Positions 8,291 through 12,274 of a DNA stretch of 64,000 nucleotides are shown in pieces (the stretch's first letter is position 1; every line of letters begins with the position of its first letter). The notes beneath the pieces are model-generated. The model did not search any database, was not told where the DNA came from, and was given only the letters and a program-made list of their open reading frames with translations. The position numbers and the translations under genes are program-made. Origin of the DNA: Candidatus Harrysmithiimonas galli (GTDB lineage Bacteria; Bacillota; Bacilli; CAJFEE01); contig CAJFEE010000003.1 in NCBI GenBank assembly GCA_904373265.1, positions 1 through 64,000 on the forward strand, in the 5' to 3' direction.

Positions 8291-10390
8291 TTATTGCTCT
8301 GCCATAGCTTTTTTACGTGAAAGATTAACTCGACCCTGACGGTCTATTTCTGTTACTTTAACCAAAATTTGATCTCCGACTTTTACAACATCCTCAACTT
8401 TAGCTACACGTTCTGGTGCCAGCTCAGAAATATGAACCAGACCATCTTTCCCAGCAAAAATTTCTACAAAACATCCGAATTTTTCAATACGTTTTACCGT
8501 TCCCATATAGACTTGTCCAATTTCAACTTCTCGCACAATATCCTCAATCATAGCTTTTGCCTTTTCAATCATTTGTACATCTGTTGAAGCAATAAAGACT
8601 GTACCATCTTGCTCAATATCAATTTTTACGCCCGTTTCATCAATAATCTGGTTGATCTGTTTCCCACCTGGTCCGATGACATCTCGAATTTTATCCGGCT
8701 TAATGATCATTGAAACAATTTTCGGTGCATAAGGCGACAACTCAGTACGTGGCTCAGAAATAGTCGAAAGCATGTGATCCAAAATATGCATTCGACCGAT
8801 TTTTGCCTGATCTAAAGCTTCTTTTAAAATTTGACGGTTGATGCCGCTAATTTTGATATCCATTTGCAGGGCAGTAATTCCTTTTGCTGTACCTGCAACC
8901 TTGAAATCCATATCACCAAGGTGGTCTTCCATCCCTTGAATATCTGTTAAAATCGTATAATGCTCCCCTTGTGCAATTAACCCCATTGCAATCCCAGCTA
9001 CTGGCGCCTTAATTGGTACACCTGCATCCATCATTGCCATCGTACTTGCACAAATACTAGCTTGGGAAGTTGAACCATTGGACTCTAATACTTCCGCAAC
9101 CAAACGAATCGTATATGGAAATGTTTTTTCATCTGGTAAAATAACCTCCAACGCACGTTCACCCAATGCACCATGACCAATTTCACGACGACCTGGACCA
9201 CGAATCGGACCTGTTTCTCCAACAGAAAACTGTGGAAAATTATAATGATGCATAAATCGCTTAGATTCTTCCAATCCCAACCCGTCAATTACTTGCACAT
9301 CTCCCATAGCACCTAAGGTACATACACTGAGTGCTTGAGTTTGTCCACGGGTAAATAAGCCGGAGCCATGCGTTCTCGGTAACACACCTACCATAGAAGA
9401 CAATGGACGAATTTCATCAACTTTACGACCGTCGGGGCGCACCTTTTCAACGGTAATTAAACGACGAACTTCCTCTTTCACAAGTTTGCTTAAGATTTCA
9501 CCAACTTGCTTCATTTCATCGCTGTCCTCTTCCATACCTTCTTCCAAAAAGATATTTCTGACTTCTTCTTTTACAGCTTGAATGGCTTCTTCACGTGCAT
9601 GTTTTTCTACAACCTGCACGGCTGCATTGATTTTTTCCTCAGACAGTGTGCGAACATGTGCTTCCAATTCTGGATCCAATTCATAAAGTACAACCTCAAG
9701 CTTTTCTTTTCCAACTTGAGCTTGTATTTCTTCTTGAAAAGCAATCAGCTTTTTAATCTCCTCATGACCAAACATAATCGCTTCCAGCATAATCTCTTCA
9801 GGAACTTCCTTTGCACCCGCCTCAACCATATTAATGGCGTCCTTTGTGCCAGCAACGGTTAAATGAATATCACTTCTCTCAGATTCTTCAACATTTGGAT
9901 TAATCACAAATTTTCCATCCACACGACCAACGATTATACCAGCAATCGGTCCTTCAAATGGAATATCGGACACACATAAAGCCAAGGAAGAACCAATCAT
10001 TGCTGCAACTTCACTTGGACAATCTTGATCGACACTTAAGACCATACTGATAACCTGTACTTCATTTCGAAATCCATCTGCAAACAATGGACGAATCGGG
10101 CGATCAATCAAACGGCTTGTTAAAATCGCCTGTTCACTTGGTCGACCTTCTCTTTTAATAAACCCTCCTGGAATTTTTCCAACTGCATATAAACGCTCCT
10201 CATAATTTACGGTTAACGGGAAAAAACCGACATTTTTTGGTTCTTTCGATGCAGTTGCTGTAGATAGTACAACCGTTTCACCATAACGAATCAGAACTGC
10301 ACCATTGGCTTGCTTAGCCAATTGACCCGTTTCAACAATTAACGGTCTCCCTCCTAATTTGGTCGTAAAAACTTGTTTTTCCTGCGTCAT
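8291..10390 (-). CDS. pnp: polynucleotide phosphorylase
   Basis: This 3'-5' phosphorolytic exoribonuclease makes nucleoside diphosphates during mRNA decay. The 699-residue protein shows two RNase PH domains joined by a helical domain, then a KH domain (around [20 protein letters not shown], about 560) and an S1 domain (around [21 protein letters not shown], about 630), the standard order. The sequence is very close to Bacillus PnpA. The start at 10390 has AGGAG seven bases upstream and gives MTQEKQVF, aligning with the Bacillus start; the ATG at 10396 sits too close to the AGGAG. It lies downstream of rpsO, as in many bacteria, but separated by 545 bp with a structured terminator. Confidence 0.97.
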
Positions 10391-10935
10391 TTTCATACTC
10401 CTCTCATTTTACATCCTTATATGTAAATATATCATTCGTTCCATACTCTTATTATCCCCAAGCCTATCCAATTGTTTTCAATATAAGATGAAATTTTGTT
10501 CAAATTTTTATTGAAAACATGTATGAAACGATCTCATTGATTTCACATTTCAATATACCCAAATGCTATTTTAAATCCATCAATTGTATTGACGCATAAA
10601 CAGACAGGCAATGGGTACATAAAAACACTATATACTTGATATAAAAAAAGAATCTCTGTTCATTTCACACAAAATCTTGTTTATTATGATTTTAATATTT
10701 TACCAACATAAAGCCTAAAAAATAAGAAGCTGTCTGTAATTGGGGAGAGCAACTCGCGAGCCTAAGGCTTCGCCTAGCTTGCCATTACCGCAGGAGTCAG
10801 ACAACTTCTTACAACCTTCTTTAGAAAAATTTCCAAAAAATCTTTCGCTCAACTAGTTTATCCCGAAACTCTCCTCAGGACACTTACCAGATCAAGCAAA
10901 AACGCTTCATCTTTTTCACATAAGTCAATTTAAAA
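10391..10935. other. rpsO-pnp intergenic region
   Basis: This 545-bp gap contains the structured terminator at 10717-10810 and about 320 bp of A/T-rich leader before pnp. A pnp promoter is expected in 10400-10700, but several weak candidates exist and none stands out. Confidence 0.5.
10717..10810 (-). terminator. branched, GC-rich structured terminator or RNA element after rpsO (AGAAGTTGTCT family)
   Basis: In minus-strand RNA AAGAAGTTGTCTG (10810-10798) pairs with CAGACAGCTTCTT (10736-10724) in a 13-bp stem with one G-U pair, followed by ATTTTTT. Inside it GTAAT/ATTAC and GCAA/TTGC can pair, and two mutually exclusive inner hairpins exist: GCGAAGCC with GGCTCGC, and CTAGGC with GCCTTAG. The interior is far more G+C-rich than flanking DNA. 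It can terminate rpsO transcripts, but the elaborate interior suggests more than a plain terminator. Confidence 0.65.
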
Positions 10936-11205
10936 TTAGCGACGCAATCCGAGACGGTTAATCAATTCACGATAACGTGTAATATCTTTATTGCGTAAAT
11001 AAGTCAACAGGTTACGACGACGACCAACCATTTTCAATAAACCACGACGGGAATGATGATCTTTTTTATGTGTGCGTAAATGATCATTTAAAGAATTGAT
11101 TTGTGCCGTTAATACCGCAATTTGTACCTCCGGTGAACCTGTATCACTTTCGTGTGTTTTGTACTCATTAATAATTTGATTTTTACGTTCTTGTGATAAC
11201 GCCAT
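10936..11205 (-). CDS. rpsO: 30S ribosomal protein S15
   Basis: The 89-residue protein has the standard S15 length. It binds the central domain of 16S rRNA and helps nucleate the 30S platform. Hallmarks are [20 protein letters not shown] (about 23-42) and the [21 protein letters not shown] stretch near the middle. AGGAGG lies just before the ATG. It sits between ribF and pnp, the usual place in Firmicutes. Confidence 0.98.
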
Positions 11206-11239
11206 TTTTAAAATCCTCCTATAATTTTTTTATTCACCA

Positions 11240-11275
11240 GAATCCTCGCTTGCGTCGGAGTGTCGCAAAGCCAAG
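11240..11275 (-). promoter_or_regulatory. possible rpsO leader hairpin
   Basis: In minus-strand RNA GCTTTGCG (11271-11264) pairs with CGCAAGC (11254-11248), with one bulge and a nine-base loop, about 45 nt upstream of the rpsO start. S15 often represses its own mRNA through leader structures, and this hairpin is a candidate. No match to a defined S15 leader class can be claimed. Confidence 0.35.
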
Positions 11276-11308
11276 AAAATGGTAACATTCTTACAAAGCA
11301 TACTAAAT

Positions 11309-12274
11309 TTACTGAAAAAAATCAAGCAATACATGATTTTTTTTCGTGAAAAACTCGGCTGCATATTGCTTATCTAACTCTATTTGTTTTTTCAAATCAT
11401 CAATCTGAGTAAATTTCATTTCATCCCGAATTCGGGCAATCCAAAAAACTTCCATTTCTTCTCCATAAATATCTTGCTGAAAATGAAAAAGATGAACTTC
11501 AATTAAAGGTTCTTCCTGACACTTATAAAATGTCGGACGAAATCCGATATTGCATACACCACGATAATATCTCCCCTTTACCGATGCATATACAACATAT
11601 ACACCAGGAGACGGCACAACAAAGTGAGATGGAATGACAAGATTAGCAGTTGGAAAGCCTAAAATCCGACCACGTTGATCTCCAGTTACAACAATTGAGT
11701 AGCTGCTAAACGGTCTTCCCAATAATTCCATCGCCAACACAAATTCCCCAGACAAAATGCATTCCCGAATACGAGTAGAGCTTACCTTTTTATGCATATA
11801 CTGTTCCTCAGTTACAATTGTGTAACCAATATCTCCCAATTGATACTGCTCAATATCAGTAAAATGCCCCTCACCTTTTTGTCCAAAACAGAAGTCAAAG
11901 CCAGCCACCACATGCTTAGCATTTAATTGTTTTAAAATTTTATCAATAAAATCTTGCGGTTTTAACGCAGCAAGCGCTTGTTCAAATCTTAATTCATATA
12001 CTCTTTCAACCCCAAGCTCAGCCATTAATTTATATTTTCTCGCTTTTGGATAAAGTAACTGAGCCTTCTTTTTTGAAAGAATAACACGACTTGGATGCGG
12101 AAAAAAAGTTAAAACACATGGAATCAGTTGCTTTTCTTTTGCTTGATTCACACAAATTTGTATAACCTTTTGATGACCATGATGTACACCATCAAAATTC
12201 CCCATCGCCAAGGCAATCGGCTCATGAAAAGTATGCTCTGCTAACGTTTCCAGACGTATTTCAATAACCTCCAT
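11309..12274 (-). CDS. ribF: bifunctional riboflavin kinase / FAD synthetase
   Basis: The enzyme phosphorylates riboflavin to FMN and adenylates it to FAD. The 321-residue protein has the usual two domains. The N-terminal nucleotidyltransferase domain has the motif GNFDGVHHGHQKVI (about 25-38) and a later SSTRIRE. The C-terminal flavokinase domain has GRILGFPTANL (about 202-212) and GVYVVYA. GGGGG precedes the ATG by five bases. It sits nine bases behind truB, so the two are probably co-transcribed and coupled. Confidence 0.96.
   Translation of the reverse strand: MEVIEIRLETLAEHTFHEPIALAMGNFDGVHHGHQKVIQICVNQAKEKQLIPCVLTFFPHPSRVILSKKKAQLLYPKARKYKLMAELGVERVYELRFEQALAALKPQDFIDKILKQLNAKHVVAGFDFCFGQKGEGHFTDIEQYQLGDIGYTIVTEEQYMHKKVSSTRIRECILSGEFVLAMELLGRPFSSYSIVVTGDQRGRILGFPTANLVIPSHFVVPSPGVYVVYASVKGRYYRGVCNIGFRPTFYKCQEEPLIEVHLFHFQQDIYGEEMEVFWIARIRDEMKFTQIDDLKKQIELDKQYAAEFFTKKNHVLLDFFQ

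Follow-up and report, generated by a model that had tools for sequence, protein, structure and literature searches.

A probable decayed copy of a Bacillales hairpin repeat as candidate rpsO terminator in Candidatus Harrysmithiimonas galli

Repeats located at the 3' ends of genes, as exemplified by REP elements, can stabilise mRNA. In bacteria other than the one considered here, PNPase is known to be controlled via leader structures. Structured intergenic repeats have been described among Bacillus species, such as Bhal-1 of Bacillus halodurans (PMC2267715), an intergenic stem-loop repeat family with a 74 nt model and 36 copies, and bcr1 of the Bacillus cereus group, a structured intergenic repeat with mobile-element traits that is grouped with MITEs. 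According to the title of a reference cited in PMC2267715, bcr1 is specific to the B. cereus group.

The window analysed here is a stretch of 64,000 nucleotides from Candidatus Harrysmithiimonas galli, and it carries a GC-rich hairpin-forming element between rpsO and pnp (Table 1). We consider that this element probably derives from an interspersed, hairpin-forming repeat of Bacillales, of which it would be a worn copy, and that it now most likely serves as the intrinsic terminator of rpsO.

Table 1. Features of the rpsO-pnp region (positions within the window)
Feature	Positions	Strand	Description	Basis
Whole element	10722-10812	minus	probable decayed member of the Bacillales hairpin-repeat family; outer stem of 15 pairs (10798-10812/10722-10736)	
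U6 run	10717-10722	minus	3' of the outer stem; putative intrinsic-terminator tail	sequence
GACTCCTGCGG	10788-10798	minus	most conserved 5' block of the repeat; inner end of the outer stem	
59-nt stretch	10749-10807	minus	71% identity, ungapped, to repeat copy L175 (sister genome)	
Inner helices GGCAAGCTAGGCGAAGCC/GGCTCGCGAGTTGCT	10747-10784	minus	correspond to P3 and P4 of the family	CM alignment
rpsO	10936-11205	minus	stop 125 nt upstream of the element stem	ORF list
pnp	8291-10396	minus	downstream of the element	ORF list

The element as an rpsO terminator

The earlier note had described a 13-bp outer stem that ends in a T-run and encloses a GC-rich interior. This organization was confirmed, with a stem GUAAGAAGUUGUCUG/CAGACAGCUUCUUAU of 15 pairs, including one internal G-U, followed on the minus strand by UUUUUU. 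The interior has a G+C content of 58%, a level reached by just 0.2% of the 59-nt stretches of the window; the average is 35% over the window and 32% in the intergenic region. The minus-strand RNA from 10812 to 10722 is predicted to fold at -37.4 kcal/mol (z = -4.1), and none of 200 shuffled sequences was equally stable. For the region 10710-10825, the predicted fold is -41.5 kcal/mol on the minus strand versus -34.7 kcal/mol on the plus strand. The single internal G-U and the U-run fit a minus-strand transcript, as was argued previously from G-U pairing, though a single pair of this type carries little weight. As for the additional pairing proposed for the interior, the P3 and P4 helices are recovered in the covariance-model alignment. 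Folded alone, the interior is no more stable than its shuffles (z = 0.07), and its folds therefore provide no independent evidence for an RNA function.

In relatives, rpsO is closed by a short perfect hairpin followed by a T-run (AAGCGGGA..TCCCGCTTTTTT in Bacillaceae). Similarly, the sister genome, which is the single other genome of the same family that was compared, carries a canonical hairpin terminator 97 nt past the rpsO stop. This canonical terminator is missing in the source genome, where the element lies 125 nt past the stop, and a pattern scan of positions 10380-11320, blind to loops as long as that of the element, detected no other terminator-like site. The outer stem stands directly before the U-run on the transcribed strand, the arrangement of an intrinsic terminator, and could plausibly close the rpsO transcript. 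With the canonical terminator lost and no candidate other than the element left between rpsO and pnp, the element has probably taken over rpsO termination. A branched interior of 60 nt is, however, unusual for a terminator. In the rpsO-pnp gap of Paenibacillus (L078, L079), rpsO is followed by a different long and branched element resembling a terminator, whose sequence is not evidently similar to that of the window element.

The earlier note had also suggested that the proximity to pnp may matter. The closest matches of pnp are Bacillaceae PNPases (81% identity). The element precedes this gene and is oriented in the same direction of transcription, and leader control of PNPase elsewhere offers a precedent. 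Nevertheless, a leader or attenuator regulating PNPase is a highly improbable explanation: the element stem is about 325 nt from the pnp start and nearer to the end of rpsO, neither the sister genome nor the compared relatives, which carry a plain terminator at this place, have a conserved counterpart, and homologous repeats occur beside many unrelated genes and pair without strand preference across the family. The Rfam scan proposed earlier yielded no match above the gathering score, either for the window, where sub-threshold matches were implausible, or for five repeat-bearing loci. Altogether, there is no sign that the element acts as a switch controlling pnp. In the pnp start region of two of the collected loci (L045, L071), the Listeria sRNA family rliD of Rfam scored above the gathering score, antisense to the pnp leader; rliD had no match at this score in the window.

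Homology to a Bacillales hairpin repeat

The lead to the family was GACTCCTGCGG, which begins a GC-rich repeat in several of 80 Bacillaceae loci around pnp. In the element, this sequence is an exact match to the conserved GACTCC(T/A)GCGG-type block, and nowhere else in the 2.7 Mb genome does it occur perfectly. Like its counterparts in nearly all members of the family alignment, it marks the inner end of the outer stem. Comparison of the element with 0.95 Mb of other genomes by blastn gave as top match the repeat copy L175 of the sister genome (59 nt, E 2.4e-4), and many further matches were repeat copies in the identical register. Against repeat copies only, the element scores 38.3 bits, whereas the best of 2000 dinucleotide shuffles reached 28.3 bits. 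A profile HMM trained on other genomes, without the element, matched it at E 0.035 for the loci collected at that stage.

Covariance models, a type of search suggested in the earlier note, were built for the repeat and run on the window and the source genome. The first and longer model, R1, which carried AT-rich flanks and a long inner hairpin, missed the element in the window (8.8 bits, E 6.9, rank 10; not significant) and had no match at E up to 10 over the source genome. R2, by contrast, is a core model for which no window sequence was used. Its top match within the window is the element (10725-10807; 20.0 bits, E 0.0017), ahead of the next match at 12.2 bits, and genome-wide the element comes second (E 0.07). 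R2 includes a short subfamily of the sister genome that, like the element, is devoid of the long inner hairpin; since this subfamily was chosen for its resemblance, after the resemblance had been seen, the E-values of R2 are somewhat flattered and the shuffle test weighs more. The most inclusive model, R3, contains the element itself, so that its score for the element is not evidence of membership.

The 5' half and the inner helices of the element are retained, including P3 and P4 with the bulged A in P4, and the outer stem is still paired, as seen in both the covariance-model alignment and the fold. In the 3' half, the GGAAAGC block of the family is gone: the conserved CGGAAAGC, which pairs with the 5' block to form P2, is replaced by CCCCAATTA, and for this reason we refer to a decayed copy and not to an intact member. 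To judge from these sequence comparisons, the GC-rich interior is accounted for by descent from the repeat. It is unlikely that the element is just an ordinary terminator whose GC-rich insert arose by chance and resembles the repeat by coincidence. It is true that the outer stem and U6 suffice for a terminator, that the matching stretch is just 59 nt, that the R1 match is not significant and that the interior folds as its shuffles do, but such a coincidence has to be weighed against a score reached by 0/2000 shuffles, the many copies matching in one register and the helix-by-helix agreement of the covariance-model alignment.

By BLAST, the element has no second copy in its own 2.7 Mb genome, the single representative of its genus in the comparison, and is thus single-copy. 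The first genome match of R2 is another relic (L251 1501-1594, corresponding to G000:C28:49508-49601, minus strand), with the stem AAAAATTGCTTG/CAAGCAATTTTT. Its neighbours are a LysR-type regulator gene and an L-lactate-permease-like gene, and it lies upstream of the latter. Within the window, a large hairpin at 1986-2062 on the minus strand (z -5.4) has the same outer stem AGAAGTTGTCT, followed by a T-run, and an AT-rich interior. The kinship of this hairpin with the element, presumed in the earlier note, was not established: the two have an 11-nt outer stem in common, of which the genome yielded no further instance, but the match of 1988-2060 to R3 has E 1.6 and is not significant. This hairpin is possibly a more decayed relative of the repeat.

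The repeat family and its mode of spread

Repeat copies are about 80-140 nt long and GC-rich, with nested, co-linear helices: an outermost helix, an outer helix and three inner helices. Two-sided changes are observed at 24 of the 37 pairs of the family alignment. Compensatory changes in the stems, which the earlier note had named, for the inner stems, as support for a functional RNA, are seen across the family, with a covariation score of 0.357 in the first family alignment versus 0.118 for shuffled and at most 0.110 for slid alignments. On 94 distinct sequences of the sister genome the corresponding scores are 0.279 and 0.094; since this alignment was fitted to the model, the first count weighs more. 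Together with the homology of the element to a multi-copy Bacillales repeat, these changes support the reading as a mobile structured repeat that the earlier note had listed among its options.

With a limit of E 10, the sister genome gave 103 matches, most of which are highly significant; about 95 have E < 0.1, and the total amounts to some 100 copies. The repeat was present in 13 of the 61 genomes of the relatives set and in 32 of 40 named Bacillales genomes, with copies at many unrelated loci; it was not found in the sampled species of the B. subtilis group, Anoxybacillus caldiproteolyticus, Paenibacillus, Brevibacillus and Aneurinibacillus. Rfam 15 holds no family for the repeat, and copies in L015, L025, L045, L071 and L073 remained unmatched there even at E up to 1. 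Plasmid matches were limited to four Peribacillus/Priestia records, and the phage search gave none.

Selection on one RNA strand would make G-U cells more frequent than A-C cells at paired positions. Their numbers are about equal (28 vs 32 in one set and 90 vs 107 in the other, leaving aside one fixed U-G column), pointing to a DNA-level palindrome of the REP/MITE type and not to a one-strand RNA. Most copies follow the 3' end of one or both flanking genes. With gene orientation taken from long open frames and not from curated annotation, convergent pairs outnumber divergent ones around copies by 26 to 4 among 77 (p = 6e-5), and by 24 to 1 in an earlier subset. A still functional RNA made from the repeat, either trans-acting or a 3'-UTR stabiliser, would agree with the stable fold of the element and with mRNA stabilisation by 3'-end repeats, by analogy with REP, but it is very unlikely given that pairing shows no strand preference across the family and that the interior has drifted.

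Near-identical dispersed copies are present in G026, from which we infer that the family could have spread by mobile, transposition-like copying. For the filled and empty sites compared (L071/L077 and L063/L054), the flanks are too diverged for defining insertion ends. Mobilisation by a RAYT was rejected, since the presence of PF01797 does not follow that of the repeat: Y1_Tnp (PF01797) had no match in the repeat-bearing G001, G016, G036, G052 and G053, that is, in the sister genome with its roughly 100 copies or in four more genomes of good completeness. Many sister-genome copies (L230, L232, L236, L238, L240-L245, L247-L250) have the small perfect palindromes GAAATGCATGCATTTC, GGGAAAAGTATACTTTTCCC and CGAAACGCATGCGTTTCG swapped in at the same repeat positions and helices, which, on sequence comparison, we interpret as nested hairpin exchange. 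Copies also occur as inverted pairs in the same region, with roughly 130-270 nt between them (L134/L166, L131, L063, L171).

For the rpsO locus, we propose that a repeat copy inserted downstream of the gene, as most copies adjoin a gene 3' end. Its interior would then have drifted, while the outer stem stayed paired and ended in a U-run. The element would now most likely terminate the rpsO transcript and shield its 3' end, replacing the simple GC-rich terminator of relatives. More generally, and only tentatively, we suggest a structured DNA repeat that is widespread among Bacillales, has no entry in Rfam 15, gathers at gene 3' ends, swaps small nested palindromes between copies with no RAYT-type transposase involved, and can be recruited as terminator of a core gene, here rpsO.

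Comparison with described systems

As a relic, the single element is of little importance alone. It led, however, to a covarying repeat family that most of the tested Bacillales genomes contain, often in dozens of copies, and that is not in Rfam. Such repeats can serve as terminators and mRNA 3' ends, and they can inflate structured-RNA screens; their occurrence without a RAYT transposase raises the question of the copying agent.

The simple rpsO terminator of Bacillaceae occupies the same place as the element and has probably the same role, but it is a short perfect hairpin and is absent from the source genome. Literature searched by sequence word and topic gave no clear description of the repeat, with the possible exception of Bhal-1 in PMC2267715. 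Bhal-1, too, is a stem-loop repeat located between genes, in a related bacterium, and, compared by description only, may be the same family, so that the novelty of the repeat family is uncertain. Set beside the repeat by description only, bcr1 is also a structured intergenic Bacillus repeat with mobile-element traits but, as reported by title, confined to the B. cereus group. With REP/BIME, ERIC and other palindromic intergenic repeats, the Bacillales repeat has in common a short imperfect palindromic structure, multiple intergenic copies, an enrichment downstream of genes and pairing kept equally on either strand. It differs from them by its greater length, several nested helices and occurrence in Bacillales and, compared with REP mobilised by RAYT, by its lack of dependence on a Y1_Tnp (RAYT-type) transposase.
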